From NCBI RefSeq assembly GCF_035994945.1, contig NZ_CP108677.1:4092001-4156000 (forward strand): a DNA stretch of 64,000 nt. Reading direction: 5' to 3'. The translations under genes and the position numbers were made by a program. Within the stretch, counting starts at the first letter, position 1. Each line of letters opens with the position of its first letter. The DNA is from Streptomyces sp. NBC_01216. Its GTDB lineage: Bacteria; Actinomycetota; Actinomycetes; Streptomycetales; Streptomycetaceae. Shown in pieces: positions 10,199-30,120 of the stretch. The notes beneath the pieces are model-generated. The model worked only from the letters and a program-made list of their open reading frames with translations. It ran no database searches and was not told where the DNA came from.

Positions 10199-10213
10199 CT
10201 GACGGTACATCAG
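10199..10213. promoter_or_regulatory. CTGAC-N5-GTCAG operator (site 1, thiolase promoter)
   Basis: CTGACGGTACATCAG, with one mismatch in the second half-site. It begins 5 bp upstream of the thiolase ATG and contains that gene's -10-like TACCGT. A bound repressor here would block transcription directly. Confidence 0.75.
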
Positions 10214-10341
10214 ATGCGGTTCGGCGGGCAGGGTGCGGGCGCGAGGGTCCGTGCGGTGTGGGCGCCCGCACCGCCGCCCCGTTTCGCGCGGTGCGCCGAT
10301 CCCGTCGACCCCCGGCCCTGTGCTTCTGTCGCGCCCCGGCC

Positions 10342-10360
10342 TAATATGACGCGCCGTCAG
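10342..10360 (+). promoter_or_regulatory. -10 box and CTGAC-N5-GTCAG operator (site 2, acyl-CoA dehydrogenase promoter)
   Basis: TAATAT at 10342-10347 overlaps the palindrome ATGACGCGCCGTCAG at 10346-10360, which has one mismatch to consensus. The acyl-CoA dehydrogenase ATG follows 16 bp later, after GGAGGGGA. Confidence 0.75.
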
Positions 10361-10376
10361 ATATGGAGGGGAGCCC

Positions 10377-11567
10377 ATGGACGCCGCCTTCACCGAGGAG
10401 CAGGACGAGATCCGCCGCACCCTGCGCGAACTGCTCGCCACGCACTGCGGACCCGCCGAGGTCCGTGCCGCCGTCGCGACCCCCGCGGGCTATGACGCCG
10501 GTCTGTGGAGCCGGATGTCCGGTGCCCTCGGGCTGTCCGGCCTCGCCCTGCCCGAGAAGTACGGGGGAGTCGGCTGCGGACCCGTCGAACTGGCCCTCGC
10601 CTGTGAGGAGACCGGCCGGGTGCTCGCGCCGTCGCCGCTCCTGGCGACCGCCGTCCTCGCCGCCCCGCTGATCGCCGCCCTGGGCGGTGTGGCGCAGCGC
10701 GCGGAGCTCCTGCCGCGCATCGCCGACGGCTCGCTGACCTGCGCCCTCGCCGTCCCGGGCGGCTCGCTCGCGCGAGCCCTCGGGCTCACCGGGGACGCCG
10801 CCGACGGCTCCTGGGCCGGGGGAGGCCGGGCCGGGGGTGTCCAGGGGCGGAGGGTGGACGGTCGCTGGCGGCTCTACGGGGAGGTGGCGCAGGTCCTCGA
10901 CGGGCACAGCGCCGGGCTGCTCGTGGTCGCCGCGCACATCGGCGGTTTCGCGCGGAGCCGGACCCGGCTGTTCCTCGTGACGGACGGGGCGGCGGGCCTG
11001 GTCCGGGTGCGCCGGCCGACCCTCGACGCGACGCGCCCCCAGGCGGTCGTCCGGCTGAGGGACGTCGAGGCGGAACCGCTCGGGGAGGACCCTCCCGCCG
11101 GGCCGGGCCTGCCGGCGGCGCTGGCCGCCGTGGGGCGGACGGCGGCCCTGGTCCTCGCGTTCGAGACGGTCGGCGCGGCCCAGGCGGCCCTGGACCGGAC
11201 GGTCGGGTACGTCGGGGTCCGCGAGCAGTTCGGCCGCCCCGTCGGCTCCTTCCAGGCGGTCAAGCACCGGCTGGCGGACCTGTACGTCCTGCTGGAGTCG
11301 GCGCGTGCCCTGGCGCACCGTGCCACGTGCGAGCCCGGGGCCGCCGGGCTCGCCCTCGCCTCGGCCCTGGAGGCGCTGCGGGCGGTGGCGGCGGACACGA
11401 TCCAGCTCCACGGGGGCATCGGCTTCACCTGGGAACACGAGGCACACCTGTATTTCAAGCGGGCGGCGGCCGACGAGCTGCTCTTCGGGCCGGTCCACCG
11501 GCTGCGGGCCCGCGCGGCCGAGGCGACGGGCCTGTTCGGCGACGCTGCCCGGGAGGTGGCCCACTGA
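10377..11567 (+). CDS. Acyl-CoA dehydrogenase family protein
   Basis: A 396-residue flavoenzyme of the acyl-CoA dehydrogenase fold, expected to introduce an alpha-beta double bond into an acyl-CoA. It has the N-terminal helical domain (EEQDEIRRTLRELL), a shortened middle barrel, and the C-terminal helical domain with REQFGRPVGSFQAVKH and LHGGIGFTWEHEAHLYFKRA. The ATG follows GGAGGGGAGCCC. Its stop overlaps the start of the next gene (TGATG), so the two are translationally coupled. Actinobacterial steroid and xenobiotic pathways often use paired, heteromeric dehydrogenases; no second copy is visible nearby. The substrate is unknown. Confidence 0.85.
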   Translation: MDAAFTEEQDEIRRTLRELLATHCGPAEVRAAVATPAGYDAGLWSRMSGALGLSGLALPEKYGGVGCGPVELALACEETGRVLAPSPLLATAVLAAPLIAALGGVAQRAELLPRIADGSLTCALAVPGGSLARALGLTGDAADGSWAGGGRAGGVQGRRVDGRWRLYGEVAQVLDGHSAGLLVVAAHIGGFARSRTRLFLVTDGAAGLVRVRRPTLDATRPQAVVRLRDVEAEPLGEDPPAGPGLPAALAAVGRTAALVLAFETVGAAQAALDRTVGYVGVREQFGRPVGSFQAVKHRLADLYVLLESARALAHRATCEPGAAGLALASALEALRAVAADTIQLHGGIGFTWEHEAHLYFKRAAADELLFGPVHRLRARAAEATGLFGDAAREVAH

Positions 11568-12061
11568 TGGCGAGCATCGGCGTACGCATGATGCGGAAGG
11601 TGTCCTCCACCCGCGCCTTCTCCAAGGTGGCGCCGCACGTCGTGCCGGCGCTGGACCGGGCGGTGCACCGGCTGACCCGGGGGAGGGTGCTGCCGAGCGC
11701 CCGCATGCTGCCGGGCGTGGTCCTCACCGCGCGCGGGGCCAGGTCGGGGCTGCCCCGGCGGACGCCGCTGGCCTGCGTGCCGGAGCCCTCCGGTGGCTGG
11801 CTGCTGATCGGGTCCAACTTCGGGCGTGAGGGGCATCCCGCCTGGACCGGCAACCTGCTCAGGAACCCGGACGCGGAGGTGAGCTGGCGGGGGGAGGCGA
11901 TTCCCGTGCGGGCGGAACTGCTGACCGGGGACCGGCGGGCGGCGGCCTGGCGGGTGGCGCTGGAGTTCTGGCCGCCGTACGCGATCTACCAGGCGCGGGT
12001 GGAGCGGGAGATCCGGCTCTTCCGGCTGACGCGGCGGGAGCCTGACCCCGGTCCGCCGTGA
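11567..12061 (+). CDS. Deazaflavin (F420)-dependent nitroreductase-family protein
   Basis: A 164-residue split-barrel protein. It has the family signature TARGARSGLPRRTPLACV near residue 55, then LLIGSNFGREGHPAWTGNLLRNPDAEV and a C-terminal PPYAIYQARVEREI. The family (Ddn-like) transfers hydride from reduced F420 to quinones, enones or nitro compounds. The ATG overlaps the preceding stop codon, so it is co-translated with the acyl-CoA dehydrogenase and probably acts on a related substrate. F420 supply is encoded in the same window by the FO synthase at 47169-49760. Confidence 0.8.
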   Translation: MASIGVRMMRKVSSTRAFSKVAPHVVPALDRAVHRLTRGRVLPSARMLPGVVLTARGARSGLPRRTPLACVPEPSGGWLLIGSNFGREGHPAWTGNLLRNPDAEVSWRGEAIPVRAELLTGDRRAAAWRVALEFWPPYAIYQARVEREIRLFRLTRREPDPGPP

Positions 12062-12187
12062 CGCCAGGGCTTCGCCGGGCCCGGCCTGTGGTGACGGGTG
12101 TCCGCCCCCGCGTGATCCGCGGGGGTCCGGCCCCGCTCCGGCCGTGCCCGTGCCGCGCCCGCCCGCGGCGGGGCCGGACACGGGAAC

Positions 12188-12224
12188 GCCGACGGCGGTG
12201 TCTCGCGGGAGGACCGCCGTCGGC
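12188..12224. terminator. Bidirectional hairpin terminator
   Basis: GCCGACGGCGGT (12188-12199) pairs perfectly with ACCGCCGTCGGC (12213-12224) over a 13-nt loop. It lies between two convergent genes. Confidence 0.8.
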
Positions 12225-12257
12225 GCGACAGGACGGATGAAGGGGACACGGCGCGGG

Positions 12258-12905
12258 CTACTTCACGGGCTTCTTCCCCGTGATGCCCAGATGGACCAAC
12301 AGCGCCAGGTTCGGCTTCAGTTCGGCCTGCTTCACGCCCCAGGTCTGGAACCCCTTCTGGTGGCCGGCGACCGAGGCCAGCATGGCGACCAGGGAGCCCG
12401 CCATCGCCGCGGGGCTGACGTCCTTGTCGACCCTGCCCTTCGCCTGGAGTTCCTTCACCGCGTCCGTCAGGGAGTTGGTGACGGAGTTGAGGATCTTCAT
12501 CCTGATCTTGTAGAAGCGTTTGTCGCCCTCGGCGGCCCCGAGGTCCACCACGCGCAGGATCGCGTCGTGCCTGCGCCAGAAGTCCAGGAAACCCTCGACG
12601 AGTTCCTCGGAGGTCGTCCAGCCGGCCTTGCCGACCCAGGAACGGCCGGAGAGCAGTTCGGTCAATCCCGTTCCCTCCTTGGCCATTTCCTCCGCGATCT
12701 CGAGGACGGCGCCCTCGACATCGGGGAAGTACTGGTAGAAGGTCGCGGGGGAAGTGCCCGCCTTCCGGGCCACGTCGATGACCTTGACGTCCCGGTACGG
12801 CGAGGAGCTGAGCATCTCGCTGAGGCAGTCGAGCAGCTTCTGCCGCGTCGCCTGACCGCGTCGTCCGGCCACGCGGCCGTCGACGGTGCGTACTTGTCCT
12901 GTCAT
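12258..12905 (-). CDS. TetR-family regulator, candidate repressor of the CTGAC-N5-GTCAG regulon
   Basis: A 215-residue protein with an N-terminal TetR helix-turn-helix (residues about 20-65: RQKLLDCLSEML, then VIDVARKAGTSPATFYQYFPD) and an all-helical ligand domain. The ATG at 12905 lies 6 nt after TAAGCT (12917-12912, minus strand), so the transcript is probably leaderless. The sequence CTGACGGCATGACAG covers the start codon and the end of that -10 box, which suggests autoregulation by the same palindrome found at the catabolic promoters. It is the only TetR gene in the window, which makes it the leading candidate for the regulator. The inducer, perhaps an acyl-CoA, is unknown. Confidence 0.85.
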   Translation of the reverse strand: MTGQVRTVDGRVAGRRGQATRQKLLDCLSEMLSSSPYRDVKVIDVARKAGTSPATFYQYFPDVEGAVLEIAEEMAKEGTGLTELLSGRSWVGKAGWTTSEELVEGFLDFWRRHDAILRVVDLGAAEGDKRFYKIRMKILNSVTNSLTDAVKELQAKGRVDKDVSPAAMAGSLVAMLASVAGHQKGFQTWGVKQAELKPNLALLVHLGITGKKPVK

Positions 12906-12917
12906 GCCGTCAGCTTA
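12899..12917 (-). promoter_or_regulatory. Leaderless -10 box and operator over the tetR start codon
   Basis: On the minus strand TAAGCT (12917-12912) is followed after 6 nt by the tetR ATG. CTGACGGCATGACAG (12913-12899) differs from the consensus at one half-site base. This geometry would give direct autorepression. Confidence 0.65.
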
Positions 12918-13198
12918 CCGACGGGTGATCGGCGCGCGATTCGGCCGACTGCAAATGGGGTGCGGGCCCCTCGGGGACCCGGGAGGGGGCTGTCCGGGCG
13001 TTCCATCGGGCCGGTCGTGTCCCGCGCGGCCGCGTCGGCCGCGCCCCGCGGCCCCCGGCCTGGTGTTCCCTGCTCGAACGGGATTATCAACAGCCTGTGG
13101 ACAACTTCGGTGGACAAGCCGGGAAGCGCCCGGCCCGGCAGGCCCCCATCTGCCCCTATGTCAGCATTTCGAGGGGTGCGGTGCCGGACTTCCGGGCC

Positions 13199-13204
13199 TA
13201 GCGT
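13199..13204 (+). promoter_or_regulatory. -10 box of a leaderless promoter
   Basis: TAGCGT ends 6 nt before the ATG at 13211, with no Shine-Dalgarno in between. The same geometry occurs at 46187-46192 and 47157-47162. Confidence 0.5.
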
Positions 13205-13210
13205 GGAGCC

Positions 13211-14263
13211 ATGGCCGCATTCACGGAGGGCACCCCGTGCTGGGTGGACGCGCAGCTTCCCGACCTCGAGGCGGGCAAGCGGTTCTACGGCGAACTCTTC
13301 GGCTGGACCTTCGACGCCGACCGGGACGAGGCCCTCAGCGACGGCGAACGGGTGGCCGGACTCCTGCCCAAGCGGGACGGCAGGATGCCGACCACCTGGA
13401 CGGTCTACCTGGCCACCTCGGACGCCGGCACGCTCGCCGCCCGGATCAAGGCCGCCGGCGGGCGGATGATCATGGAGCCCTATCCCGTCGGCCCGTTCGG
13501 CGTGATGGCGCTCGCCGCCGATCCCGGCGGCGCGGTCTTCGGACTGCGCCAGACGGGGGAGGACGACGGCTTCGAGAAGACGATGCGGCCCGGTTCCTTT
13601 TGCTGGATGGAGGTCTACACGCGGGAGCGGGACGCGGTCGACACCTTCTACGCCTCCGTCTTCGGCTACCTGGGCCGCCAGATCGAGGCGGCCGAGGAGG
13701 GCCGGGACAGCGGATTCGACTACCGGGTCTGGTCTCCGCCCGGCTCCCGCTCCGAGCAGGACACCGCCTTCGGCGGCCGGGCCGTGCTCACCGAGGCGTT
13801 CCCGGCGGCGATGCCCGGCCACATCCTGGTCTATTTCGCCGTCCGTGACTGCGACGAGACCTGCGCCACGGCCGTCCGGCTCGGCGGACGCGTCACCAAC
13901 CCGCCCTTCGACACCCCGCACGGCCGGATCGCCGTCCTGCACGACAACCAGGGCGCGCGCTTCGCGGTCCTGGCCGAGCCCACCGCCGCGGACCCCCCGG
14001 CCGGTCCGGCCGAGGCTGCGGCCGAGCCGGGCGCCGGGCTCGAGTCCGAGTCCGCGTCCGCGTCCGAGGGAACCGTCCCCGCCGACTCCGACGCTCCCGG
14101 CACCCCCGACGCCTCCGAGGCGCGCGACACTCCCGGCGGCGCGCCCGGAACCGGCACCGGCCCGGTCCGGGGCGCCGGCACCGGGCCGGGCTCGGCGGAC
14201 GGCCCCCGGCCCGCTCCCGGACCGGGGTCGCCGGCCGGCGGGGAGCCCGGCGAAATGAGATAG
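13211..14263 (+). CDS. VOC (glyoxalase-fold) protein with two VOC modules and a disordered tail; positional candidate for KbpA
   Basis: A protein of 350 residues. Residues about 5-125 and 130-258 are two VOC modules ([47 protein letters not shown]), as in Cfp30B-type proteins once annotated as hydroxylases. Residues about 260-350 are a low-complexity Ala/Pro/Gly/Ser/Glu tail with no visible domain. The gene lies 104 bp upstream of afsK on the same strand. In S. coelicolor, as I recall, the AfsK-binding inhibitor KbpA (about 252 residues) is encoded beside afsK. The core length and position here would fit, but I cannot align the sequences, so this is inference. The mRNA is probably leaderless. 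Confidence 0.75.
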
Positions 14264-18375: not shown

Positions 18376-19146
18376 TCAGCGCAGGCGGTGCCCGCCGCGG
18401 CGCCGGGCGAACAGCCCGGCCTGCCGCTCGGGTGGCAGGTTCCCCAGCGTGACCAGATGGGGTGCCAGGGCGAGGGCCGGCGCGCGGCCGGCCTCCTTGG
18501 CCGACCACAGGGCGCGGACCGTGCCCTGGACGGCCTCCGTGGGGTAGGAGGCGATGACGGCGGCGACCCGTCGGGCGGCGGCCAGTGCCCCGCCGGGCTC
18601 CGTGAGCTCGGAGACCAGACCCGTCTCGTAGGCCCGCCGGGCCGAGATCCGCTCGGCGGTCCCGGTCAGCGCCATCCGCGCGACCTCCCCGAACGGCATC
18701 CGCTGCGCCATGTGGACGGTCTCGAAGGCGCTGACCATGCCATAGGCCGTGTGCGGGTCGAAGAAGGCGGCCCCTTCGCCGGCGACCAGGAACTCCGCTT
18801 CCCCGAGGAGATAGAACGCCCCGCCGCAGGCCATCCCCTCCACGGCCGCGATCACGGGCTTCCACAGATCGTTCGCCTTCGGGCCGACGGTGAGCAGCGG
18901 ATCGTCGATCGTGTACGGGGAGGAGGGCTGCGGGACCTCGGCGGCGCGGTCGATGCCGGTGCAGAAGGCCCGCTGCCCGGCGCCGGTGACGACGACCGCC
19001 CGGACGGCGTCCTCGTAGCGGAACCCGCGCCAGACGGCGGCCAGTTCGCGGGCCATCCCCAGGGTCAGGGCGTTGTGCTTCTCCGGACGGTCGAGGGTGA
19101 CGACGGCGACCCCGGTCTCCTCGTCGCGTGCGACGGTGATGCTCAT
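18376..19146 (-). CDS. Enoyl-CoA hydratase/isomerase-family (crotonase) protein, atypical active site
   Basis: A 256-residue crotonase. It has the oxyanion-hole segments AFCTGID and VEGMACGGAFYL. The usual catalytic glutamates are absent: the classical GGGCEL block reads CGGAFYL, and the classical Pro-Glu segment reads FFDPHTAYGMV. It belongs to a divergent actinobacterial subfamily that may catalyse something other than simple hydration. The ATG overlaps the stop of the DUF35 gene (ATGA), so it is the last gene of a three-gene operon with the DUF35 protein and a thiolase-fold protein. Confidence 0.8.
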   Translation of the reverse strand: MSITVARDEETGVAVVTLDRPEKHNALTLGMARELAAVWRGFRYEDAVRAVVVTGAGQRAFCTGIDRAAEVPQPSSPYTIDDPLLTVGPKANDLWKPVIAAVEGMACGGAFYLLGEAEFLVAGEGAAFFDPHTAYGMVSAFETVHMAQRMPFGEVARMALTGTAERISARRAYETGLVSELTEPGGALAAARRVAAVIASYPTEAVQGTVRALWSAKEAGRAPALALAPHLVTLGNLPPERQAGLFARRRGGHRLR

Positions 19147-19574
19147 CCGCGCTCCAGCAGCCAGCGCGGTACGGCGAAGCCGTCGACGTCGGTGAAGACG
19201 ACCCGCACGGCCGCGCCGATCCGCAGCCGGGCCGGGTCGACCGAGTCCAGGGGAGCGTCCGGGGCGGCGACCACGTTCCCGACGAGGCGGATGCGGGGTG
19301 CCTCGGCGAGTTCCACGACGACGACGTTGTACGGGGCCTGGGCGGCGTAGTCGGGCAGGAGCGGCGGATGGGGCAGGACGAAGGACCAGATCCGGCCGCG
19401 TCCGGACATCGGGCGCCACACGCTGTCGAAGGACTGGCAGCACGGGCAGCAGGGGCGGGGCGGGAAGCGGAGTTCACCGCACTCCGGCGCCGCGCAGCTC
19501 TGCACGCGCAGCTCGCCCCGGGCGGTGTACTCCCAGAAGGGGGCGCCGTCCTCGTCGACCACCGGTGTCAGCAT
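19143..19574 (-). CDS. DUF35 OB-fold protein with zinc ribbon, partner of the adjacent thiolase-fold protein
   Basis: A 143-residue protein with an N-terminal rubredoxin-like zinc ribbon (C..PEC near residues 28-33, then CCPCC near 43-47), followed by an OB-fold domain (GRGRIWSFVLPHPPLLPDYAAQ; PYNVVVVELAE). DUF35 proteins form obligate complexes with thiolase-fold partners, as in the ChsH2-Ltp2 retro-aldolase of cholesterol side-chain degradation. The thiolase gene lies 15 bp upstream on the same strand and the crotonase overlaps its stop, so the three are one operon. This is the only DUF35 gene in the window and may serve both thiolase-fold proteins. Confidence 0.85.
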   Translation of the reverse strand: MLTPVVDEDGAPFWEYTARGELRVQSCAAPECGELRFPPRPCCPCCQSFDSVWRPMSGRGRIWSFVLPHPPLLPDYAAQAPYNVVVVELAEAPRIRLVGNVVAAPDAPLDSVDPARLRIGAAVRVVFTDVDGFAVPRWLLERG

Positions 19575-19589
19575 CCGTGCCTCAACTCC

Positions 19590-20732
19590 TCACGCTCGCA
19601 GCAGAATCGCCGAAGTGGGAACCCCCTCGCCGGCCGTGACCAGGCAGGTGGCGGCATCCGGGACCTGGGCGGTGGAGGTGCCCCGGAGCTGTTTGACGCC
19701 CTCGTTGATCAGGTTGAAGCCGTGGACGTACGCCTCGGAGAGGCCGCCGCCGCCGGTGTTCAGGGGCAGCCGGCCGCCGATCTCCAGGGCGCCGCCCTCG
19801 GTGAAGGCCGCCCCCTCGCCCCGGGAGCAGAACCCGTAGCCCTCGAGGGAGAGCGGGACGAGTGGGGTGAAGGCGTCGTAGATCTGGGCGACGTCCACGT
19901 CCCGCGGTCCGAAGTCTGCCTGCTTCCAGAGCTGCCGGGCGGCGGTCCAGGCCGGGCCGGTCAGCGGGTCGTCGTTCCAGTAGTTGACCATCCCGTGGTG
20001 CTGGGCGGGCAGTCCCTGGGCGACGGAGTGGACGTAGACCGGCTTCCGGCGGCAGTCGCGGGCCCGTTCCGCGGAGACGACGACGCAGGCCAGCGCGCCG
20101 TCGGTCTCCAGGCAGTTGTCGAAGAGGCAGAGCGGCTCGCTGATCCAGTGGGCGGTCATGTACATCTCGCGGGTCAGCGGGCGTTCGTACATGACGGCGG
20201 CCGGATTCTGGTTGGCACGGTTGCGGCAGGCGAGCGCGACGTTGAAGAGGTGGTCGCGGGTGGCGCCGTACTCGTGCAGGTAACGGCGGGCGAGGAGTCC
20301 TATCTCGTCGGAGGGCCGCAGCAGTCCGAAGGGCCGGGTCCACTGTCCGGGGGTGGGGAGCTGGGTCCGGGTGTTCTTCCAGGGGCGTGGGCCCGAACCG
20401 CGCTTGCGTGAGCGCCAGGCGACGCCGACGCCGGCCTGTCCGGTGGCGACGGCGGCGGCGAGGTGGCCGACGGTGGCGCACGAACCCCCGCCGCCGAAAC
20501 CGACCTTGGAGAAGAAGGTCACGTCCCCGGCGCCGATCGCCTTGGCGACCTCGACCTCGTCGGTCTCCTCCATGGTGTACGAGGCGAGGGCGTCGACCTC
20601 GGACGGGGCGATCCCGGCGTCGTCGAGGGCGGCGAGGATCGCCCGGCAGGCGAGGGTCTTCTCCGGCTCGGGGAGCCGTCTGGCGAAGGGCGTCTGCCCG
20701 ATCCCGACGATGGCCGTGGCGTCCTTGAGCAC
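19590..20732 (-). CDS. Thiolase-superfamily protein, Ltp2-like aldolase candidate
   Basis: A 380-residue protein with GTG start at 20732 behind GGGGAGG. Residues near the thiolase nucleophile read GGGGSCATVGHLA; the C-terminal block is LPLNTGGGGLSEAYVHG instead of the Cys-His thiolase end. That is typical of the SCP-x/Ltp branch, which works with DUF35 proteins. The DUF35 gene lies immediately downstream. The likely reaction is retro-aldol or thiolytic release of a short acyl-CoA from a branched or cyclic substrate. The promoter (TAGCCT, minus strand 20775-20770) overlaps operator site 3. Confidence 0.82.
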   Translation of the reverse strand: MLKDATAIVGIGQTPFARRLPEPEKTLACRAILAALDDAGIAPSEVDALASYTMEETDEVEVAKAIGAGDVTFFSKVGFGGGGSCATVGHLAAAVATGQAGVGVAWRSRKRGSGPRPWKNTRTQLPTPGQWTRPFGLLRPSDEIGLLARRYLHEYGATRDHLFNVALACRNRANQNPAAVMYERPLTREMYMTAHWISEPLCLFDNCLETDGALACVVVSAERARDCRRKPVYVHSVAQGLPAQHHGMVNYWNDDPLTGPAWTAARQLWKQADFGPRDVDVAQIYDAFTPLVPLSLEGYGFCSRGEGAAFTEGGALEIGGRLPLNTGGGGLSEAYVHGFNLINEGVKQLRGTSTAQVPDAATCLVTAGEGVPTSAILLRA

Positions 20733-20756
20733 GGTGTCCTCCCCGTTCGGCCATTA

Positions 20757-20775
20757 CTGACAGCGCGTCAGGCTA
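20757..20775 (-). promoter_or_regulatory. -10 box and operator site 3 (thiolase-DUF35-crotonase operon)
   Basis: Perfect palindromic half-sites CTGACAGCGCGTCAG at 20757-20771. The minus-strand -10-like TAGCCT (20775-20770) overlaps the palindrome edge. Confidence 0.8.
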
Positions 20776-20779: not shown

Positions 20780-20798
20780 TAATCTGACGGATAGTCAG
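20780..20798 (+). promoter_or_regulatory. -10 box and operator site 4 (FadD3-like ligase)
   Basis: TAATCT (20780-20785) runs into the palindrome CTGACGGATAGTCAG (20784-20798). The centre is 27 bp from site 3, so the divergent promoters carry one operator each. Confidence 0.8.
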
Positions 20799-20828: not shown

Positions 20829-22370
20829 ATGCGCGGCGACCTGGAATGGGGATCGATACCGAGGCTGGTGCGCGCGGCGGCCGAGCGCTACGGAGACGAC
20901 GAGGCGGTCGTCGAGGGCCGCACCCGCGTCTCGTACGCCGGACTCGGCGAGCGTGTCGAACGCGCCGCGGCGGCCTGCATCGCCTCCGGGGTCCGGCCGG
21001 GCGACCGGGTGGCCGTCTGGGCGCCCAACAGCCTGGACTGGATCGTCGCGGCTCTGGGCGCGGTCACCGCGGGAGCCGTCCTGGTCCCGCTGAACACCCG
21101 CTTCAAGGGGACCGAGGCGGCCTCCGTACTGGAGCGCTCACGCGCCCGGCTGCTGTTCGTCACCGGCACCTTCCTGGGCACCTCGTACGTGGCCTCACTG
21201 CGTCGCGCCCGCGTCCGGCTGCCCCACCTGGAGAAGGTGGTCGTCCTGGCGGACAGCGCGCCGGACGACTATCTGACCTGGAAGGCGTTCCTGGCCGAAG
21301 GCGACCGGGTCCCCTCCTCGCGGGTCCGCGCGCGGGCCGACGCGGTGGGCCCCGACGACCCCTCGGACCTCGTCTACACCTCGGGGACCACGGGCCGCCC
21401 CAAGGGCGTGGTCATCACCCACGCACAGACCCTGCGCTGCTACGCGATCTGGTCCGACCTCGCCGGCCTGCGCCGTGGCGACCGCTACCTCATCGTGAAC
21501 CCCTTCTTCCACACCTTCGGCTACAAGGCCGGGATCATCGCCTGCCTGATGCGCGGCGCGGTGATGATCCCGCAGCCCGTGTTCAACGTGGACACCGTCC
21601 TCGCGAACATCGCCGCCGAACGCGTCTCGGTGCTCCCCGGACCGCCCACCCTCCACCAGTCGTTGCTGGACCATCCCGCCCGCGCCTCCCACGACCTCTC
21701 ACCGCTGCGGCTGGTCGTCACCGGTGCCGCGGTGGTGCCGCTCCGGCTGGTGGAGCGGCTGCGCGGCGAACTGGGCGTGGACACGGTCCTCACCGCGTAC
21801 GGCCTGTCCGAGGCGAGCGGCATCGTGACCATGTGCCGCCGGGGAGACCCCTCCGACGTCGTGGCGACGACCTCCGGCCGCCCGATCCCCGGCACGGAGG
21901 TCCGGGTGTCGGAGACCGGTGAGATCCTGGTGCGCGGCCACCACGTCATGCGCGGCTACTTCGAGGACGAGGAGGAGACGGCCCGCACGGTCGACGCGGA
22001 CGGCTGGCTGCACACGGGTGACGTGGGCGTCCTGGACGAGGCGGGCAACCTGCGGATCACCGACAGGGTCAAGGACATGTTCATCGTCGGCGGCTTCAAC
22101 GCCTACCCGGCCGAGATCGAGCAACTCCTCGGCCTTCATCCGGACATCGCCGATGTCGCGGTCGTCGGCATCCCGGACGCGCGGCTCGGCGAGGTGGGCA
22201 AGGCGTTCGCGGTCCGGCGGTCCGGCGCACGGGTGACGGCCGACGACCTGATCGCCTGGGCGCGCCGGGAGATGGCGAACTTCAAGGTGCCGCGCGAGGT
22301 CGAGTTCGTGGCGGAACTGCCGCGCAACGCGAGCGGCAAGGTGGTGAAGGGGGAGCTGCGGGGGCGCTGA
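20829..22370 (+). CDS. FadD3-like acyl-CoA synthetase
   Basis: A 513-residue ANL-superfamily ligase. Motifs: P-loop-like YTSGTTGRPKG near residue 185, the region NPFFHTFGYKAGI, adenylate motif TAYGLSEASG, LHTGDVG, and the C-terminal lysine in RNASGKVVKGELR. It resembles M. tuberculosis FadD3, which activates the steroid C/D-ring propionate HIP; the NPFFH-FGYKAGI and LPGPPT-QSLLDHPAR blocks in particular look alike. The true substrate could be another ring-derived acid. ATG 20829 was chosen over in-frame GTGs because family similarity starts there and GGCGGGAAG lies 8 nt upstream. Confidence 0.85.
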   Translation: MRGDLEWGSIPRLVRAAAERYGDDEAVVEGRTRVSYAGLGERVERAAAACIASGVRPGDRVAVWAPNSLDWIVAALGAVTAGAVLVPLNTRFKGTEAASVLERSRARLLFVTGTFLGTSYVASLRRARVRLPHLEKVVVLADSAPDDYLTWKAFLAEGDRVPSSRVRARADAVGPDDPSDLVYTSGTTGRPKGVVITHAQTLRCYAIWSDLAGLRRGDRYLIVNPFFHTFGYKAGIIACLMRGAVMIPQPVFNVDTVLANIAAERVSVLPGPPTLHQSLLDHPARASHDLSPLRLVVTGAAVVPLRLVERLRGELGVDTVLTAYGLSEASGIVTMCRRGDPSDVVATTSGRPIPGTEVRVSETGEILVRGHHVMRGYFEDEEETARTVDADGWLHTGDVGVLDEAGNLRITDRVKDMFIVGGFNAYPAEIEQLLGLHPDIADVAVVGIPDARLGEVGKAFAVRRSGARVTADDLIAWARREMANFKVPREVEFVAELPRNASGKVVKGELRGR

Positions 22371-23604: not shown

Positions 23605-23805
23605 TTACGTCAGGGGCTCGCCGGTGGCGTGCGAGTCGAGCGGCTTCATCGGCGTGCCGGTGGCGTGGGAGTCCAGCGTCGTGAACTCCTCGCCGGTGGC
23701 GTGCGAGTCGAGCGGCTTCATCGGCGTGCCGGTGGCGTGGGAGTCCAGCGTCGTGAACTCCTCGCCGGTGGCGTGCGAGTCCGTGGGCTTGAGGTTGTCG
23801 GCCAT
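23605..23805 (-). CDS. afsS: AfsS-like small sigma-like protein (DSHATG repeats)
   Basis: A protein of 66 residues from ATG 23805 with AGGAG 8 nt upstream, ending in TAA. It is almost entirely five DSHATG motifs at 12-residue spacing, alternating EEFTTL and TPMKPL linkers. At DNA level the unit is 72 bp, duplicated. AfsS of S. coelicolor (63 residues) is also a tiny repeat protein, called sigma-like, encoded just downstream of afsR, and is the transcriptional target through which AfsR raises antibiotic production. Position (220 bp after afsR, same strand), length and repeat design support the call. The repeat residues differ from those I remember for S. coelicolor. Confidence 0.85.
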   Translation of the reverse strand: MADNLKPTDSHATGEEFTTLDSHATGTPMKPLDSHATGEEFTTLDSHATGTPMKPLDSHATGEPLT

Positions 23806-24024: not shown

Positions 24025-27003
24025 TCAGGCGACCGCCGCCGGGTGGAGCAGGACGCGGACGGACCGCGCCTCCGGGGACCCGAGATCCTCGAAGACCGTG
24101 AGCGCCTCGGTCCAGCACACGCGGGCCCGGTCCGTCTGCCCCAGGGCGGCGAGCCCCTGGCCGAGAACGGTCAGGACGTTGGCACGGCGCCACTCCCCGC
24201 CGATGCCGTGCAGCACGGACAGGGCCTGCTCGGCGTTGGCCGCCGCCGCCGCGTGCCGGCGGTCGGCGAGGTGCACCTCCGCGAGCCGGAACAGCGTCAT
24301 CCCGTGCCACAGCCGCTGGCGGCTCTCCTGGAAGACGCCGAGGGCCTCGGTCAGCACGGCACGGGCCTGGGCGGTCCGGCCCGAGGCGGTCAGCGCGAGT
24401 CCGAGGGCGTACTTGCCGTTGGCGAGCCGCAGGGCGAGCCCGGTCTCGGCCCGCTCGTAGATCGCGATGCCCTGCTCGGCGAGTTCGACGGCGCTGTCGA
24501 CGCGGCCGGTGGCCAGGTGTACCCGGGACAGGTTGCACAGGGCGCTGGCCTCGCCCGGCCTGTTCGCGTCGGCGCGGAAGGCGGCCAGGGCCCGGGACAG
24601 GTGGGCCTCGGCGTCCGGGTGGCGGTTCTCGTACAGGGCGAGGATGCCGCGCTCGTTGGGCGCGTTGCCCTCCGTCCAGGGGTCGCCGGACGCGCGGCCG
24701 AGATCCATGGCGAGGTGGGCCTCGCCGTCGGCGTCCTCGAAGCGTCCGGCCGTGCTGTGGACCTGGGTGAGCGTGGTGCGGGCGCGGCCCTCGGAGCGGG
24801 CGTCGCCGGCCGTGCGGGCGGCGTCCCGTGCGGCCATGGCCGCCAGTTCGTAGTGGCGGGCGTTGACGCCTGATTCGGCCAGGTCCTTCGTCGCCATCAG
24901 GAGGTCGACGGCCCGGCGCAGAGAGCCGGGGGCGAGGGACTGCTGCACACAGGCCAGCACGCAGTCCGCCTCGGCGTGCAGCCAGTCGAGGGCGTCGGCG
25001 TGGTCGGTGAACTGGAGCCCCGCGTGCCGGGTGGCCTCCAGATGGGCGACCGTCCGGTCGCCCGGCCGCTCGATGGCGTACACCCTCGCCGCCGTCGACA
25101 GGTAGAAGTCCAGCAGTCGCGACAGTGCCAGTTCCCTCTCCACCGGAGGGTGTTCGTCGCGTTCCGCGCAGGCACGCGCGTAGAGCCGGACCAGGTCGTG
25201 GTAGCGGTACCTGCCGGGGGCCGCCGATTCGAGCAGGGAGGTGTCGACCAGGGCCTCCAGGAGATCCTCGGTGTCGTGCGGCGGGAGGTCCAGGACCGCC
25301 GCGGCGGCCGCCAGCGAGATGTCCGGGCCGTCCGCGAGGCCCAGCAGTCGGAAGGCACGCGCCTGGGCCGGTTCCAGCTGGCCGTATCCGAGCTCGAAGG
25401 TGGCCTTCACCGCGAGGTCGCCCGCCTGGAGCTCGTCCAGCCGGCGCCGCTCGTCGGCGAGCTTGGCCGCCAGGACCGAGACCGTCCAGGTGCGGCGGGC
25501 CGCCAGCCGGGAGGCGGCGATACGGATCGCGAGGGGGAGGAAGCCACAGGCCGCCACGACGTCGAGCGCCGCCTCCCGCTCCGCCCGCACCCGCTCCGCG
25601 CCGACGATGCGGGTGAAGAGCTGGAGCGCCTCCTCCGGGGACATGACGTCCAGGTCCACCAGGTGCGCGCCCGCCAGGTCCACCATCCTGATCCGGCTGG
25701 TCACCAGGGCGGCGCAGCCGGCCGTGCCCGGGAGCAGAGGCCGGATCTGCGCCGCGTCGCGGGCGTTGTCGAGCAGGACCAGGACCCGCCGGCCGTCGAG
25801 CGTGGAGCGGTACAGCGCGGCCCGCTCGTCCGGTGAGTCGGGGATGGCGGAGTCGGCGACGCCGAGGGCCCGCAGGAAGCCGCCCAGCACGGTCTCCGCC
25901 GTCGCCGCCCGGGAACCCGCGCCCTGGAGGTCGACGTAGAGCTGGCCGTCCGGGAAGTGCGGCCGGGCCTCGTGCGCCACGTGTACGGCGAGCGTGGTCT
26001 TGCCGACGCCGCCGATGCCCGCGAGGGCCGAGACGGCCATGACGGAGCCCTCCGCGGCGGCGAGCAGGTCGCCGAGCTCCCGGACGAAGGAGGCGCGGCC
26101 GGTGAAGTCGGGAACGGTCGCCGGAAGCTGTGCCGGGCGCGCGGACGGTGCCGCGGACGGGGCGGCTTCCTCGGCCGGGCGGTCCAGTTCGGCGTCGGCC
26201 CGGAGAATCCGCTGCTGGAGCCGGGACAGCTCGGCGCAGGGGTCGACGCCGAGTTCGTCGGCGAGCAGCCGGCGCGTGTCCGCGTAGACGGCGAGCGCCT
26301 CCGCCTGCCGGCCGCTGCGGTACAGGGCCAGCATCAGCAGTTCGCGCAGCCGCTCGCGCAGCGGATGAGCGGCCGTCAGCGCGGTCAGCTCGGACACGGC
26401 CTCCGCGTGCGCGCCGACCTCCAGGTCCATGTCGAGCCGGTTCTCCACCAGCTGGAGCCGCCACTCCTCCAGGCGCGTCCGCTGGGTCTCGGCGTACGGC
26501 CCGGGGACGGAGGCCAGCGCCTCGCCGTCCCACAGTCCGAGGGAGGTGTTGATCCGGGTCCGGGCCCCGCCGAGGTCGCCGGCCGACCGCAGTTTCTCGG
26601 CCTCGGCTGCGAGGTCCCGGGCGATGCCGAGGTCCAGGGCCTCGGCATGCGTCCTGATGGCGTAGCCCCCGGACTCGCTGACGAGCACACCGGGGTCGAG
26701 GATCTTGCGCAGCCGTGAGGCGTACGTCCGGACGGCGGCCAGGGCCTGCGAGGGCGGTTCGTCGCCCCAGATCGCGTCGATCAGCTCGGCGGCGGTCGCC
26801 GTGCGCCCGTCGCGCAGCAGCAGTGCGGCGAGCAGGGCCCGCTGCTGCGGCGAGCCCGAGGGAAGTGCCTCGTCGTTCCGCCAGGCCCGTACGGGCCCGA
26901 GCACGCCGAAGCGCAGTTCGTCGGCCGGCCGCCGGTCGGCGTCCCCGGAACCCGCTACCGGAGTCCGTGGCTCCGGCACTTGCGGCCCGTTCTCACGGTC
27001 CAT
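24025..27003 (-). CDS. afsR: AfsR-type SARP regulator (winged helix, BTAD, NB-ARC, TPR)
   Basis: A protein of 992 residues; S. coelicolor AfsR has 993. Residues about 30-115 are the OmpR-like winged helix (LRFGVLGPVRAW to YASRLRKIL). About 120-270 is the bacterial transcriptional activation domain (GLWDGEAL, ELGVDPCAELSRLQQ). About 300-600 is an NB-ARC ATPase with Walker A GIGGVGKTT near 330. About 690-960 are TPR helices. Phosphorylation by AfsK and ATP binding are expected to drive DNA binding at the afsS promoter, linking nutrient and kinase signals to secondary metabolism. It lies divergent from the amidohydrolase gene, with operator site 5 between them. Confidence 0.92.
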   Translation of the reverse strand: MDRENGPQVPEPRTPVAGSGDADRRPADELRFGVLGPVRAWRNDEALPSGSPQQRALLAALLLRDGRTATAAELIDAIWGDEPPSQALAAVRTYASRLRKILDPGVLVSESGGYAIRTHAEALDLGIARDLAAEAEKLRSAGDLGGARTRINTSLGLWDGEALASVPGPYAETQRTRLEEWRLQLVENRLDMDLEVGAHAEAVSELTALTAAHPLRERLRELLMLALYRSGRQAEALAVYADTRRLLADELGVDPCAELSRLQQRILRADAELDRPAEEAAPSAAPSARPAQLPATVPDFTGRASFVRELGDLLAAAEGSVMAVSALAGIGGVGKTTLAVHVAHEARPHFPDGQLYVDLQGAGSRAATAETVLGGFLRALGVADSAIPDSPDERAALYRSTLDGRRVLVLLDNARDAAQIRPLLPGTAGCAALVTSRIRMVDLAGAHLVDLDVMSPEEALQLFTRIVGAERVRAEREAALDVVAACGFLPLAIRIAASRLAARRTWTVSVLAAKLADERRRLDELQAGDLAVKATFELGYGQLEPAQARAFRLLGLADGPDISLAAAAAVLDLPPHDTEDLLEALVDTSLLESAAPGRYRYHDLVRLYARACAERDEHPPVERELALSRLLDFYLSTAARVYAIERPGDRTVAHLEATRHAGLQFTDHADALDWLHAEADCVLACVQQSLAPGSLRRAVDLLMATKDLAESGVNARHYELAAMAARDAARTAGDARSEGRARTTLTQVHSTAGRFEDADGEAHLAMDLGRASGDPWTEGNAPNERGILALYENRHPDAEAHLSRALAAFRADANRPGEASALCNLSRVHLATGRVDSAVELAEQGIAIYERAETGLALRLANGKYALGLALTASGRTAQARAVLTEALGVFQESRQRLWHGMTLFRLAEVHLADRRHAAAAANAEQALSVLHGIGGEWRRANVLTVLGQGLAALGQTDRARVCWTEALTVFEDLGSPEARSVRVLLHPAAVA

Positions 27004-27111: not shown

Positions 27112-27140
27112 CTGACGGGTCGTCAGATCGGCGCTACCGT
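27112..27140 (+). promoter_or_regulatory. Operator site 5 and leaderless -10 box (amidohydrolase)
   Basis: CTGACGGGTCGTCAG at 27112-27126 is a perfect half-site palindrome near the -30 region. TACCGT at 27135-27140 is followed after 7 nt by the ATG. Confidence 0.75.
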
Positions 27141-27147
27141 GGCCACC

Positions 27148-28365
27148 ATGGAGACCTTCCCGAAGATCATCTCGGTGGACGACCACACCGTGGAACCTCC
27201 GCACGTCTGGCAGGACCGACTCCCCTCCCGGTACCGGGAGACCGGACCGCGCGTCGTCCGCGCCCCCTTGAGGGAAATGAGCTTCCTCGGCGGCAGGTTC
27301 GCCCCCGTCATGGGCTCCCCGGGGGACGACGGTCCGATCGGCGACTGGTGGGTGTACGAGGACCTGCACCGGCCGCTCACCCGTCTCGACACCGCCGTCG
27401 GCTACGACCGGGACGAGATCCGGCTGGAGGTGATCACGTACGAGCAGATGCGCCCCGGCTCCTACCGCGTCCCCGACCGGCTCGCCGACATGGACGTGAA
27501 CCACGTCCAGTCCGCCCTCTGTTTCCCCACCTTCCCGCGGTTCTGCGGGCAGACCTTCACCGAGGCGGCCGACCGCGAGCTGGGGCTGCTCGGTGTCCGT
27601 GCCTACAACGACTGGATGGTGGAGGAGTGGTGCGGGTCCGAGGCGCGGGGCCGTCTCATCCCGCTCACCCTGATACCGCTCTGGGACGCGGAACTGGCCG
27701 CCGCCGAGGTCCGGCGCAACGCCGCCCGCGGGGTGCGGGCCGTCGCCTTCTCGGAGATCCCGCCCCACCTCGGGCTGCCCTCGGTGCACACCGACCACTG
27801 GGACCCCTTCCTGAGGGCCTGCGACGAGACCGGCACCGTCGTCGCCATGCACATCGGGTCCTCCAGCCGGATGCCGAGCACCTCGACGGACGCGCCGCCC
27901 GCCGTCGGGTCCACCATCACCTTCGCCAACTGCTGCTTCTCGATGGTCGACTGGCTGATGAGCGGCAAGTTCGAGCGCTTCCCGAACCTGCGCGTCATGT
28001 ACGCGGAGGGTCAGATCGGATGGATCCCGTACATCCTGGAGCGCGCCGACGTGGTCTGGGAGGAGAACCGGGGCTGGGGCGGGGTCGCCGAAAAGGTGCT
28101 GCGCCCGCCGTCGGAACTCTTCGCCGAGCACGTGTACGGCTGCTTCTTCGACGACGCCTTCGGGCTGCGGAACCTGGACGCCGTCGGCGTCGGCAACGTC
28201 CTCTACGAGACCGACTACCCGCACTCCGACTCCACCTGGCCCGAGTCCCGCGAGGTCGGCGAGGCGCAGATGGGGCACCTGGCGCCCGACGTGGTCGAAC
28301 GGATCGTGCGCGGCAACGCGATCGACCTGCTCGGGTTGACGCCTGACGGCCTCTGGCGGCCGTAG
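27148..28365 (+). CDS. Amidohydrolase-2 family metal-dependent hydrolase
   Basis: A protein of 405 residues from ATG 27148, chosen because a -10 box ends 7 nt before it and no Shine-Dalgarno exists; GTG 27139 is an in-frame alternative. It is a TIM-barrel amidohydrolase of the decarboxylase-like branch. Seen are an N-terminal metal-site variant (ISVDDHTVEPP), a mid-barrel His segment (VAMHIGSSSRMP), YAEGQIGWIPYILERAD, and the late catalytic YETDYPHSDSTWP with its metal-binding Asp. Members hydrolyse or decarboxylate ring-derived acids. It carries operator site 5 at its promoter, so it probably belongs to the same catabolic programme as the thiolases. Confidence 0.82.
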   Translation: METFPKIISVDDHTVEPPHVWQDRLPSRYRETGPRVVRAPLREMSFLGGRFAPVMGSPGDDGPIGDWWVYEDLHRPLTRLDTAVGYDRDEIRLEVITYEQMRPGSYRVPDRLADMDVNHVQSALCFPTFPRFCGQTFTEAADRELGLLGVRAYNDWMVEEWCGSEARGRLIPLTLIPLWDAELAAAEVRRNAARGVRAVAFSEIPPHLGLPSVHTDHWDPFLRACDETGTVVAMHIGSSSRMPSTSTDAPPAVGSTITFANCCFSMVDWLMSGKFERFPNLRVMYAEGQIGWIPYILERADVVWEENRGWGGVAEKVLRPPSELFAEHVYGCFFDDAFGLRNLDAVGVGNVLYETDYPHSDSTWPESREVGEAQMGHLAPDVVERIVRGNAIDLLGLTPDGLWRP

Positions 28366-28407
28366 GCCCGTCCGCGCGGGGAGTGGACGATCCGCGGTCG
28401 GCTCACA

Positions 28408-28480
28408 CCCCTTGCCTGATGGGGCGTCAGCGATGACGATGGGCCCCGTCATCGAAGCTGACGAGGCGTCAGACAAGGGG
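28408..28480. promoter_or_regulatory. Compound palindromic operator (sites 6 and 7) before the LLM oxidoreductase
   Basis: Site 6 is CTGATGGGGCGTCAG (28416-28430) and site 7 is CTGACGAGGCGTCAG (28458-28472). Between them is a palindrome with arms CGATGACG (28431-28438) and CGTCATCG (28447-28454). The outer flanks, CCCCTTG (28408-28414) and CAAGGGG (28474-28480), are also complementary, so the whole 73 bp is a nested inverted repeat. Confidence 0.75.
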
Positions 28481-28487
28481 TGGGTCC

Positions 28488-29408
28488 ATGGTGTCGTACG
28501 GGATGCAGCTCCCGGTCCAGTCGCAGAGCACCCTCTACGCCGAGCCCTGGGAGGCCGCGGCGGGGCCCGGCGATCTCGTCGAGATCGCCCGCGCCGCCGA
28601 CCGCGGCGGTTTCGACTACCTCGCGAGCTGCGACCACGTCGCCATCCCCCGGCGTCTCGCCGGGCCGATGGGCACCGTCTGGTACGACCCGGTCGCCACG
28701 CTCTCCTTCCTCGCCGCCGTCACCGAGCGGGTCCGGCTGCTCTCGCACGTCGCGATCGTGGGGCTGCGGCACCCGCTGGTGTCGGCCAAGGCGTACGCGA
28801 CCGTCGACCACCTGTCCGGCGGACGGCTCGTCCTCGGGGTCGGGGCCGGTCACGTGCCCGAGGAGTTCGACGCCGTCGGCGCGGACTTCGCGGGGCGCGG
28901 GCGCGTGCTCGACGAGACGATCGACGCGCTGCGGGCGGCCCTCGGGCCGGCGGAGTTCCCGGAGTTCGCCGGCGAGCGCTTCGCCTTCAAGGACCTCGGG
29001 CAGCGGCCCCGGCCGGCGCAGCGGCGGGTGCCGGTCTGGGTCGGCGGCTCCTCGCCCGCCGCCCTGCGCCGGGCGGCGCTGAAGGGGGACGGCTGGCTGC
29101 CGCAGGGCGACTCCCGCGAGGAGCTGCCGGGCCGGATCGCGCGGCTGCTGCGGCTCCGGGCCGAGGCGGGGATCGAGGCCCCGGTCACGGTGGGGGCCAT
29201 CACCGAGCCGCTGTACGTCGGCGTCGCCGGCTGGGAGGTCGGACGGCGGACGCTGACCGGAGAGGCGGAGGCCGTCGCCGCGTCGCTCCGCGCGTACGGG
29301 GAGATGGGCGTGCAGCAGATCCAGGTCCGCTTCCGCTCCCGGAGCCGGACCGAACTGACCGACCAGATGGCGGCGTTCGCCGCGGAGGTCGCACCGCGTC
29401 TGAACTGA
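28488..29408 (+). CDS. LLM-class F420-dependent oxidoreductase
   Basis: A protein of 306 residues, ATG after AAGGGGTGGG. It has the bacterial luciferase-like TIM barrel: an N-terminal strand, then DYLASCDHVAIPR near residue 45, the F420-class signature LVLGVGAGHVPEEFDAVG near 115, and VPVWVGGSSPAALRRAA near 180. The family uses reduced F420 to act on aldehydes, ketones or enones. It is under the compound operator and 14 bp before the remains of an SDR gene, so the transcript once carried both. The substrate is unknown but probably a CoA-pathway intermediate or ring ketone. Confidence 0.83.
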   Translation: MVSYGMQLPVQSQSTLYAEPWEAAAGPGDLVEIARAADRGGFDYLASCDHVAIPRRLAGPMGTVWYDPVATLSFLAAVTERVRLLSHVAIVGLRHPLVSAKAYATVDHLSGGRLVLGVGAGHVPEEFDAVGADFAGRGRVLDETIDALRAALGPAEFPEFAGERFAFKDLGQRPRPAQRRVPVWVGGSSPAALRRAALKGDGWLPQGDSREELPGRIARLLRLRAEAGIEAPVTVGAITEPLYVGVAGWEVGRRTLTGEAEAVAASLRAYGEMGVQQIQVRFRSRSRTELTDQMAAFAAEVAPRLN

Positions 29409-29422
29409 GGAGCGTGGCGGGC

Positions 29423-30080
29423 ATGGGCAGGCTGGACGGACGCGTCGTGGTGATCACGGGGGCGGCGCGCGGGCAGGGTGAGCAGGAGGCGCGGCTCTTC
29501 GCCGCCGAGGGGGCGAGGGTCCTCCTGGGTGACGTCCTCGACGACTCCGGGGAGGCGCCGACCGAGGAGCTGGGGGAGGAGCGGGCCGCGTACGTCCGTC
29601 TCGACGTCACCCGGGAGGAGGACTGGTCCGCGGCACGATCGTGCACACCTCCTCGTTCACGGGTCTGACGGGTATGGCGGGCGTCGGCGCCTGCGCCGCC
29701 TCCAAGCACGCCGTGGTCGGGCCCACCCGGGTCGCGGCGCTGGAGCTGGCGGGGCGGGGTATCCGGGTCGACGCGATCTGTCCCGGGCGATCGACACCCC
29801 GATGGGCAGTCCGGAGGGAGCGGACCCGCAGGCCACCGCGGCGCTGTACCGCAAGCTCGTCCCGCTCGGCCGGATCGGACGGCCGGAGGAGGTCGCGGCC
29901 CTGGCGCTGTTCCTGAGCGGTGACGAATCGGCCTACATCACGGGGCAGCCGTTCGTGATCGACGGCGGCCGGCCGGGGCCGGCCTCCGCTGACCGCGGAG
30001 CCCCGGACGCGGCGTCCCGGCGGACCGTCCCGGACAGTATCCCTGACGCGTCGTCAGCTATTGACGGGCCCGTGCGGTGA
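29423..30080 (+). pseudogene. Short-chain dehydrogenase remnant (internal deletion plus frameshift)
   Basis: The N-terminus is normal SDR ([14 protein letters not shown] at residues about 6-19) through LDVTREEDW. At about 29627-29634 the frame shifts straight into [14 protein letters not shown], so roughly 60 residues including the NNAG region are missing. The active-site Tyr of the YxxxK motif reads Cys (ACAASKHAV). A second shift near 29785 is needed to reach [11 protein letters not shown] and the C-terminal [11 protein letters not shown]. Three reading frames are used in turn. After about 29970 the frame runs on without family similarity to 30080. It is almost certainly nonfunctional. Confidence 0.85.
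30043..30057. promoter_or_regulatory. CTGAC-N5-GTCAG operator (site 8)
   Basis: CTGACGCGTCGTCAG, perfect half-sites, preceded by TATCCC. It lies inside the run-on tail of the SDR remnant and 88 bp before the next TTG start. Confidence 0.75.
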
Positions 30081-30105
30081 TGCGAAAGTCGGGCACATCA
30101 AGTAT

Positions 30106-30120
30106 CTGACGGTACGTCAG
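30106..30120. promoter_or_regulatory. CTGAC-N5-GTCAG operator (site 9)
   Basis: CTGACGGTACGTCAG, perfect half-sites; TATCT overlaps its left edge. It ends 24 bp before the TTG start of the second LLM gene, 63 bp centre to centre from site 8. Confidence 0.8.

Follow-up and report, generated by a model that had tools for sequence, protein, structure and literature searches.

A predicted CTGACN5GTCAG operator and a candidate autoregulated TetR repressor of acyl-CoA catabolism in Streptomyces

Results

The tetR locus and its palindromes

The subject of this study is a 64,000-nucleotide stretch of the Streptomyces sp. NBC_01216 genome (contig NZ_CP108677.1, positions 4,092,001 to 4,156,000; hereafter the window), in which copies of a 15-bp palindrome, CTGACN5GTCAG, stand at the promoters of a tetR gene and of a group of putative acyl-CoA catabolic genes. 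A preliminary description of this DNA had proposed that the palindrome defines a candidate regulon for catabolism whose TetR regulates itself, and had listed ten sites; all ten were found where they had been placed, and the promoter positions and gene families assigned to them were correct. Six of the ten, rather than the five counted in that description, are exact (20757, 20784, 27112, 28458, 30043 and 30106), and four (10199, 10346, 12899 and 28416) carry one mismatch. The predicted operators are listed below, followed by the genes around them; G013 and G035 are two genomes used for comparison, and LLM denotes a luciferase-like monooxygenase.

10199..10213, candidate operator, one mismatch, 4 bp before the thiolase-like gene's ATG; G013 and G035 carry sites at the corresponding divergent promoter
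10346..10360, candidate operator, one mismatch, upstream of the acyl-CoA dehydrogenase gene, overlapping TAATAT
12899..12913, candidate operator, one mismatch, over the tetR start codon; kept in same-genus and named loci
20757..20771, candidate operator, exact, in the divergent promoter of the lipid-transfer thiolase and FadD3-family ligase genes
20784..20798, candidate operator, exact, in the same divergent promoter
27112..27126, candidate operator, exact, upstream of the Amidohydro_2 gene
28416..28430, candidate operator, one mismatch, upstream of LLM gene 1
28458..28472, candidate operator, exact, 15 bp upstream of LLM gene 1
30043..30057, candidate operator, exact, upstream of the LLM gene 2 operon
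30106..30120, candidate operator, exact, upstream of the LLM gene 2 operon

9007..10194, minus strand, thiolase-fold protein (Thiolase_C_1; best NCBIfam model PRK06158, below cut-off)
10377..11567, plus strand, acyl-CoA dehydrogenase (best NCBIfam model IpdE2, below cut-off)
11567..12061, plus strand, F420H2/deazaflavin-dependent reductase, overlapping the stop of the acyl-CoA dehydrogenase gene
12258..12905, minus strand, tetR, 215 aa (Pfam TetR_N and TetR_C_38)
18376..19146, minus strand, enoyl-CoA hydratase family
19143..19574, minus strand, DUF35/ChsH2-type OB-fold protein (OB_ChsH2_C)
19590..20732, minus strand, lipid-transfer thiolase (PRK07855, over cut-off)
20868..22370, plus strand, FadD3-family acyl-CoA ligase (NF005801, 813.6 bits, cut-off 657; AMP-binding); an earlier in-frame start is possible
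27139..28365, plus strand, Amidohydro_2 family hydrolase
28488..29408, plus strand, F420-dependent LLM oxidoreductase, LLM gene 1 (TIGR03619, over cut-off)
30145..31269, plus strand, second luciferase-like monooxygenase, LLM gene 2 (Bac_luciferase)
31435..33174, plus strand, Amidohydro_3 hydrolase, probably in the LLM gene 2 operon
33171..34628, plus strand, aldehyde dehydrogenase, probably in the LLM gene 2 operon

The exact palindrome occurred six times in the window, against a mean of 0.06 in shuffled windows, which never held more than one; with up to one mismatch allowed there were 12 sites against 3.13 per shuffled window, and none of 100 shuffled windows reached either count. A scan of the window allowing two mismatches gave no excess (28 sites, 41 expected). 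All six exact sites fell within 9.4 kb, and CTGAC-Nk-GTCAG was present at k = 5 alone when k was varied from 0 to 12; clusters of two other species, which had been picked for their k = 5 sites, held 11 and 8 copies at this spacing and 0 or 1 at any other. CTGAC/GTCAG is common to the sites, and a fuller form, CTGACG-N3-CGTCAG, was often seen.

Two further one-mismatch sites were noted. That at 13150-13164 begins 61 bp before a glyoxalase-type gene at 13211 and was found in one of 30 tetR loci, its own, and is therefore probably due to chance; that at 41915, in a weakly scored predicted gene, is probably also a chance occurrence.

An overlap of the palindromes with -10-like boxes, also claimed in the preliminary description, was borne out in part, at five sites, with no convincing box at the others. 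TAATAT overlaps site 10346, TAATCT overlaps 20784, TAGCCT on the minus strand overlaps 20757 and TACCGT, again on the minus strand, lies inside 10199, while at tetR site 12899 is overlapped by TAAGCT, followed by six bases to the ATG. By analogy with KstR (PMC1995591), a palindrome over the -10 box and start is repressor geometry.

Conservation of the site at tetR

A site over the tetR start codon, CTGACGGCATGACAG or a close variant, was present in 30/30 same-genus loci; in an enlarged set that includes these 30 it was seen in 49 of 50, and in five further same-genus loci in 4, giving 53/55. Among 80 named loci, mostly of Streptomyces and one titled Streptosporangium with a TetR 89% identical, all 80 had the site at tetR and none had a control palindrome there (the reversed palindrome, itself palindromic and of equal composition); the control was likewise absent from tetR in all 32 loci of a second set.

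As coding sequence makes up half of the site, and conservation within the genus extends over the entire promoter, tests outside the genus are the stronger, because other families separate conservation of the operator from that of the promoter. In other families, family f13 aside, 17 of 19 loci with TetRs 42-56% identical had a site of at most one mismatch between -350 and +60 of the tetR start (two of the loci, L136 and L165, are one contig). Nine of these loci were named, being three Frankiales/Frankiaceae metagenome-assembled genomes (MAGs), Frankia nepalensis, two Pseudofrankia, one Parafrankia and two Actinomadura. The Actinomadura loci have sites also at the genes next to tetR, one large and ligase-like and the other amidohydrolase-like. 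A conserved palindrome is therefore found at the regulator's own promoter.

Sites across the genome and the genus

A scan of the whole genome, as suggested in the preliminary description, returned 35 exact sites and 3 copies of the control palindrome. The random scatter that, according to that description, would have refuted the proposal was not seen: 29/35 were intergenic, in examined DNA that was 18% non-coding (p = 1.6e-16; a site counted as intergenic when a gene predicted by our own gene caller covered under two thirds of it), and 28/35 lay between -40 and 250 bp of a predicted start, 20 of the 28 being less than 100 bp from the nearest one. Context was read over at least 4 kb on each side for 29 sites and within the window for the other six. 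Genes or operons for acyl-CoA, CoA-ligase, thiolase/DUF35, amidohydrolase, LLM or flavin-redox functions were preceded by 17 of the 35 (six in the window, three in L024, two in L034 and one each in L021, L025, L026, L035, L038 and L040), the functional labels being ours and based on part of the genes in each operon. The regulon thus appears to be catabolic, as first described, and to extend beyond the 20 kb of that description, with some sites at genes that are not catabolic.

Across the genus, 41 genomes held 1589 sites and 87 copies of the control. Equivalents of all the window promoters carried sites in G035, as did those in G013 except that of LLM gene 1, and both genomes had sites at further promoters (equivalents were matched by eye from N-termini). 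Targets of NBC_01216 outside the window that recurred with sites in both were an ADP-forming CoA ligase, an HsaB-like reductase, a cyclase-family gene and the promoter of the DUF35/149-aa genes beside a flavin monooxygenase; a MaoC-dehydrogenase-short-chain dehydrogenase/reductase (SDR) operon with a site recurred in G035, the one of the two examined for it.

At L039:4058-4102 two sites, one exact and one with a mismatch, were observed between a FAD-binding monooxygenase gene and a second TetR gene, where cross-talk to another regulator is possible.

Covariation of the sites with the TetR gene

The density of sites was compared among genomes of the class, of which 246 were available (22 of the genus and 224 others); five genomes of family f13 were set aside, leaving 219. 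The 16 genomes with a TetR of at least 43% identity had a median of 3.16 sites per Mb, against 1.29 in the 203 scored as lacking it (p = 8e-8, uncorrected for relatedness), genomes with weak matches of 34-37% (G201, G220 and G272) and G069 (33%) being counted in the latter class. The density of the control palindrome was alike in the two (0.31 and 0.29 per Mb). Within families f14 (7 against 5 genomes) and f18 (6 against 14) the comparison gave p = 0.005 in each case, again uncorrected for relatedness.

The five f13 genomes (G052, G074, G092, G108 and G124) each held 232-473 copies of the palindrome and 2-7 of the control. In 800 kb of G052 (C1:1706001-2106000 and 3000001-3400000; L109-L128 and L242-L261) there were 47 copies, of which 24 were intergenic, 17 of these between convergent genes; 22 of the 47 contained a stop codon and six intergenic copies contained the stops of both genes. 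The f13 palindrome resembles a dispersed 3'-end element, perhaps a terminator or an uptake-type sequence. It was because these hundreds of copies look like 3'-end elements that f13 was left out, as its inclusion would have made the density test look stronger for the wrong reason.

The TetR protein and the neighbouring genes

The tetR gene is present in one copy in the genome and was found in 41/41 sampled genomes of the genus. The protein has both a TetR_N helix-turn-helix and a TetR-type C-terminal domain (Pfam). Its AlphaFold2 model had a predicted local distance difference test score (pLDDT) of 90.9, and all of the top 25 Foldseek matches to the model were EthR entries (TMq 0.73-0.80); by phmmer the E value against EthR was about 6e-6 (entry 3sdg identified as EthR). 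Identity to EthR was 17-18%.

Elsewhere in the window lie genes for a Ser/Thr kinase with PQQ repeats (14367-16775), a small repeat protein (23605-23805) and a BTAD/NB-ARC/TPR regulator (24025-27003). From sequence and gene order, the kinase, regulator and repeat-protein genes presumably correspond to afsK, afsR and afsS respectively, and the window fits the afsK-afsS-afsR region. In the published account the TetR SCO4421 is placed close to afsK (SCO4423; PMC3878966). Since the window TetR lies near an afsK-like kinase, we take it as the orthologue of SCO4421, an assignment by location and family in which the SCO4421 sequence itself was not compared. SCO4421 is whiA-dependent, its expression being reduced in a whiA mutant, and a reporter gave signal in spore chains (PMC3878966).

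The preliminary description knew of no named Streptomyces regulator with this consensus. One open-access library, outside which most subscription papers lie, agreed in holding no paper on the motif, its variants or the Pfam accession; SCO4421, the locus name under which the protein is already on record, appeared in one paper, and a deletion of it has been published.

Among the remaining features, open reading frames 19582-20754 (in another frame, overlapping the lipid-transfer thiolase gene) and 30126-31421 (overlapping LLM gene 2) were without a Pfam match. An SDR gene of the LLM operon, at 29420-29970, was split over three reading frames here and is one open frame in G013; it is either a decayed gene or the site of a sequence error.

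Discussion

The proposed regulon and its alternatives

Comparison across genomes gives good support to a regulon for catabolism under a TetR that regulates itself. It is very probable, judging from these sequence data, that several acyl-CoA catabolic operons form a regulon under an autoregulated SCO4421-type TetR repressor, which acts through CTGACN5GTCAG. A TetR dimer would sit on the palindrome across the -10 box and start, both at tetR and at scattered operons with predicted roles in acyl-CoA activation, beta-oxidation, cleavage by lipid-transfer thiolase/DUF35 and redox steps of F420/flavin type. It would act by repression rather than activation, keeping transcription shut off until the putative ligand, an acyl-CoA or a related hydrophobic intermediate, enters an EthR-like core.

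Several observations weigh against this reading. Within the genus no site was found near tetR in L140/G036 (TetR 66% identical) or L097/G162 (82%), genomes which still hold 28 and 30 exact sites respectively, and the tetR promoter is kept far beyond the palindrome within Streptomyces. Outside the genus the site was missing at tetR in L132/G070 and L133/G061 (42-43% identity), in two weak relatives (34-35%) and in two of the four f13 loci. In NBC_01216 six of the 35 sites lie inside genes, several precede genes of no evident connection, among them those for PPK2, YnfA, a ricin-type lectin and the FAD monooxygenase beside the second TetR, and the exact site at L022:3998-4022 is the centre of an extended inverted repeat that lies between genes for peptide transport and resembles an operator less than it does a terminator or processing hairpin. 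Absence of the TetR in the density test is a soft class, as the protein search of the class scored up to 12 candidates per genome. The genomes placed in it still show an excess of the palindrome (1093 copies against 292 of the control); part of every count is therefore background, and other such palindromes exist. Finally, deletion of SCO4421 is reported to have given no visible phenotype on MS agar (PMC3878966).

The sites might belong instead to another global regulator, such as BldD, with the TetR merely one of its targets. The 15-bp BldD box, nTnACnC(A/T)GnGTnAn (PMC7374567), shares the frame TNAC-N5-GTNA with the sites, and two Streptomyces genomes have many sites and none by tetR. The centre of that box, nC(A/T)Gn, was however met in only 1/35 sites of NBC_01216 and in 0/23 of the G013/G035 stretches, and BldD was rejected as the reader of the sites; the density of sites, moreover, tracks the TetR gene across families, and control by another regulator seems improbable. 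Less probable still, indeed very unlikely, is that the palindrome serves chiefly as a terminator or some other dispersed hairpin, as it apparently does in f13. This would accommodate the number of f13 copies and their frequent position between convergent genes or over stop codons, the L022 site that runs into a longer inverted repeat and the residual excess in genomes lacking the TetR; it sits poorly with the placement of 28/35 sites close to starts in the window genome and with the sites of the window itself, after which no run of four T was found within 45 bases on the plus strand.

Nature of the substrate

The preliminary description had suggested a cyclic or steroid-like substrate. The lead is a reasonable one. 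In Frankiales MAGs, linkage to echA20/ipdAB-type genes strengthens it, but the ring-C/D genes of Streptomyces itself have another palindrome and another regulator, and a search of the NBC_01216 genome gave no KshA-type hydroxylase. In six Frankiales MAG loci (L146-L148 and L162-L164) tetR adjoins genes for an SDR, an EchA20-like hydratase and IpdA- and IpdB-like subunits, and the loci that are long enough also hold an IpdC-like protein; in 6/6 both tetR and the SDR/EchA20-like promoter carried a site with no more than one mismatch. These labels follow the Mycobacterium tuberculosis genes (PMC5380842) by protein similarity; the name ipdF, considered for the SDR beside echA20, was dropped as the same source gives ipdF as Rv3559c.

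The IpdA of L148 has a counterpart of 61-68% identity in 32 of 41 Streptomyces genomes. That of NBC_01216 matches entry 6co6 (E 2e-95), whose listing names a probable CoA-transferase alpha subunit and which we take to be IpdA, and its gene is flanked by IpdB-, IpdC-, EchA20- and FadA6-like genes and by a TetR gene (L153:4616-5230) whose product matches KstR2 (4w97, E 7.7e-55). Nine Streptomyces loci with such an ipd-type ring-C/D cluster were read (L153-L161, being C1:5604001-5624000 of NBC_01216 and eight others), the KstR2-type TetR being sequence-matched in L153. The palindrome CAAACGTTTG stood at the SDR/echA20-like promoter in 7/9, a position which in mycobacteria is the KstR2 binding place (PMC3068626). 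The mycobacterial KstR2 core, CAAGnnCTTG, was absent from all nine loci and from the window. A CTGACN5GTCAG-like site of at most one mismatch was not found within 300 bp upstream of the cluster genes in eight of the nine; L155 has one weak, one-mismatch site upstream of kstR2, and two others there precede genes outside the cluster. No acyl-CoA ligase was seen in eight of the nine, as judged by eye from N-termini, and L160 has one.

Presence of ipdA tracked the number of sites, with a median of 40.5 in the 32 genomes having it against 9-44 in the nine without (p = 0.0012), although two of the nine, both fragmented drafts, run counter to this in keeping 43-44 sites. KshA-type sequences were over cut-off in 9/41 genomes of the genus and strong, at about 300 bits, in 2/41; steroid pathways have been predicted in 2/57 Streptomyces genomes, the other 55/57 lacking a predicted one (PMC4810484).

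The sequence relationships make steroid-like chemistry plausible. As a FadD3-family ligase lies under the predicted operator, the ipd clusters are mostly without a ligase, ipdA tracks the sites and KshA was not found, a late-entering steroid-like acid, such as methylhexahydroindanedione propionate (HIP), fits better than whole steroids. It is quite possible, on the other hand, that the TetR binds the sites but that what it controls is routine turnover of branched or fatty acyl-CoAs, such as that of stored or membrane lipid in sporulation, rather than use of a polycyclic substrate, an alternative that concerns the substrate alone. The whiA dependence of SCO4421 and its activity in spore chains (PMC3878966) would suit such generic lipid turnover, as would the predominance of generic beta-oxidation families, the failure to find a KshA-type hydroxylase here and the 55/57 genomes without predicted steroid pathways (PMC4810484). 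It accounts less readily for the co-occurrence of a FadD3-family ligase, ChsH2-type DUF35 and lipid-transfer thiolases with an HsaB-like flavin reductase (212.8 bits, just below the 230 cut-off), for the relation between ipdA and site number, or for the ipdAB-like genes that lie with sites beside the regulator in Frankiales MAGs.

A two-tier pathway is put forward tentatively, with rather more doubt than conviction. An upper tier under the SCO4421-type TetR (FadD3-family ligase, lipid-transfer/DUF35 cleavage, and LLM and flavin redox) may feed a ring-C/D tier under KstR2 in most Streptomyces, the substrate being a steroid-like bi- or polycyclic acid, and in Frankiales the regulator may have taken over the ring-C/D genes directly.

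Significance and comparison with known systems

The analysis gives a predicted operator, regulator and target list for a TetR found in 41/41 sampled genomes of a heavily studied genus, and it supplies a candidate role for SCO4421, which was deleted earlier without a role being found (PMC3878966). The predicted target genes surround afsK-afsS-afsR, a well-known locus of antibiotic control. An IpdA-like gene in 32/41 sampled genomes and an ipd-type cluster in the nine loci read stand against the steroid pathways predicted in 2/57 (PMC4810484), and what Streptomyces degrades with its ring-C/D genes becomes a directly testable question. If true, the two-tier pathway would be hidden in a genus predicted to lack steroid catabolism.

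SCO4421, like the window TetR a TetR close to afsK, is known for its whiA dependence and expression in spores, the available part of its account giving neither operator nor regulon (PMC3878966). The nearest solved fold to the model of the window TetR is that of EthR from M. tuberculosis; the EthR motif is described as a bigger and more complex one that departs from the classical palindrome (PMC4482099), unlike the simple 15-bp palindrome predicted here. KstR2 (Rv3557c) is a TetR repressor of the HIP (ring C/D) genes, including that for FadD3 (PMC5380842, PMC3068626), and in Frankiales MAGs the SCO4421-type gene resembles it in lying by echA20/ipdAB-like genes with sites. The KstR2 operator is AnCAAGnnCTTGnT (PMC3068626), no operator of this type, nor its core, being found in the window, and this genome has a separate KstR2 orthologue apart from the window TetR. 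Identity of the window TetR with KstR2 was rejected, as KstR2 entries were absent among its 25 PDB matches at E ≤ 0.01 and it is the other gene that matches 4w97. The closest parallel in arrangement is KstR (Rv3574) of mycobacteria, likewise an autoregulated TetR repressor with a palindrome over the -10 box and a large dispersed lipid/steroid regulon; its operator is TnnAACnnGTTnnA, whereas the sites in the window have CTGAC/GTCAG, and the possible S. coelicolor relative of KstR that has been named is SCO2319 (32% identity) and not SCO4421 (PMC1995591). The operator, regulon and role proposed for the SCO4421-type protein were not found in the one open-access library, which most subscription papers lie outside; as a kind of system, autoregulated TetR repressors with lipid/steroid-type regulons are already represented by KstR and KstR2.

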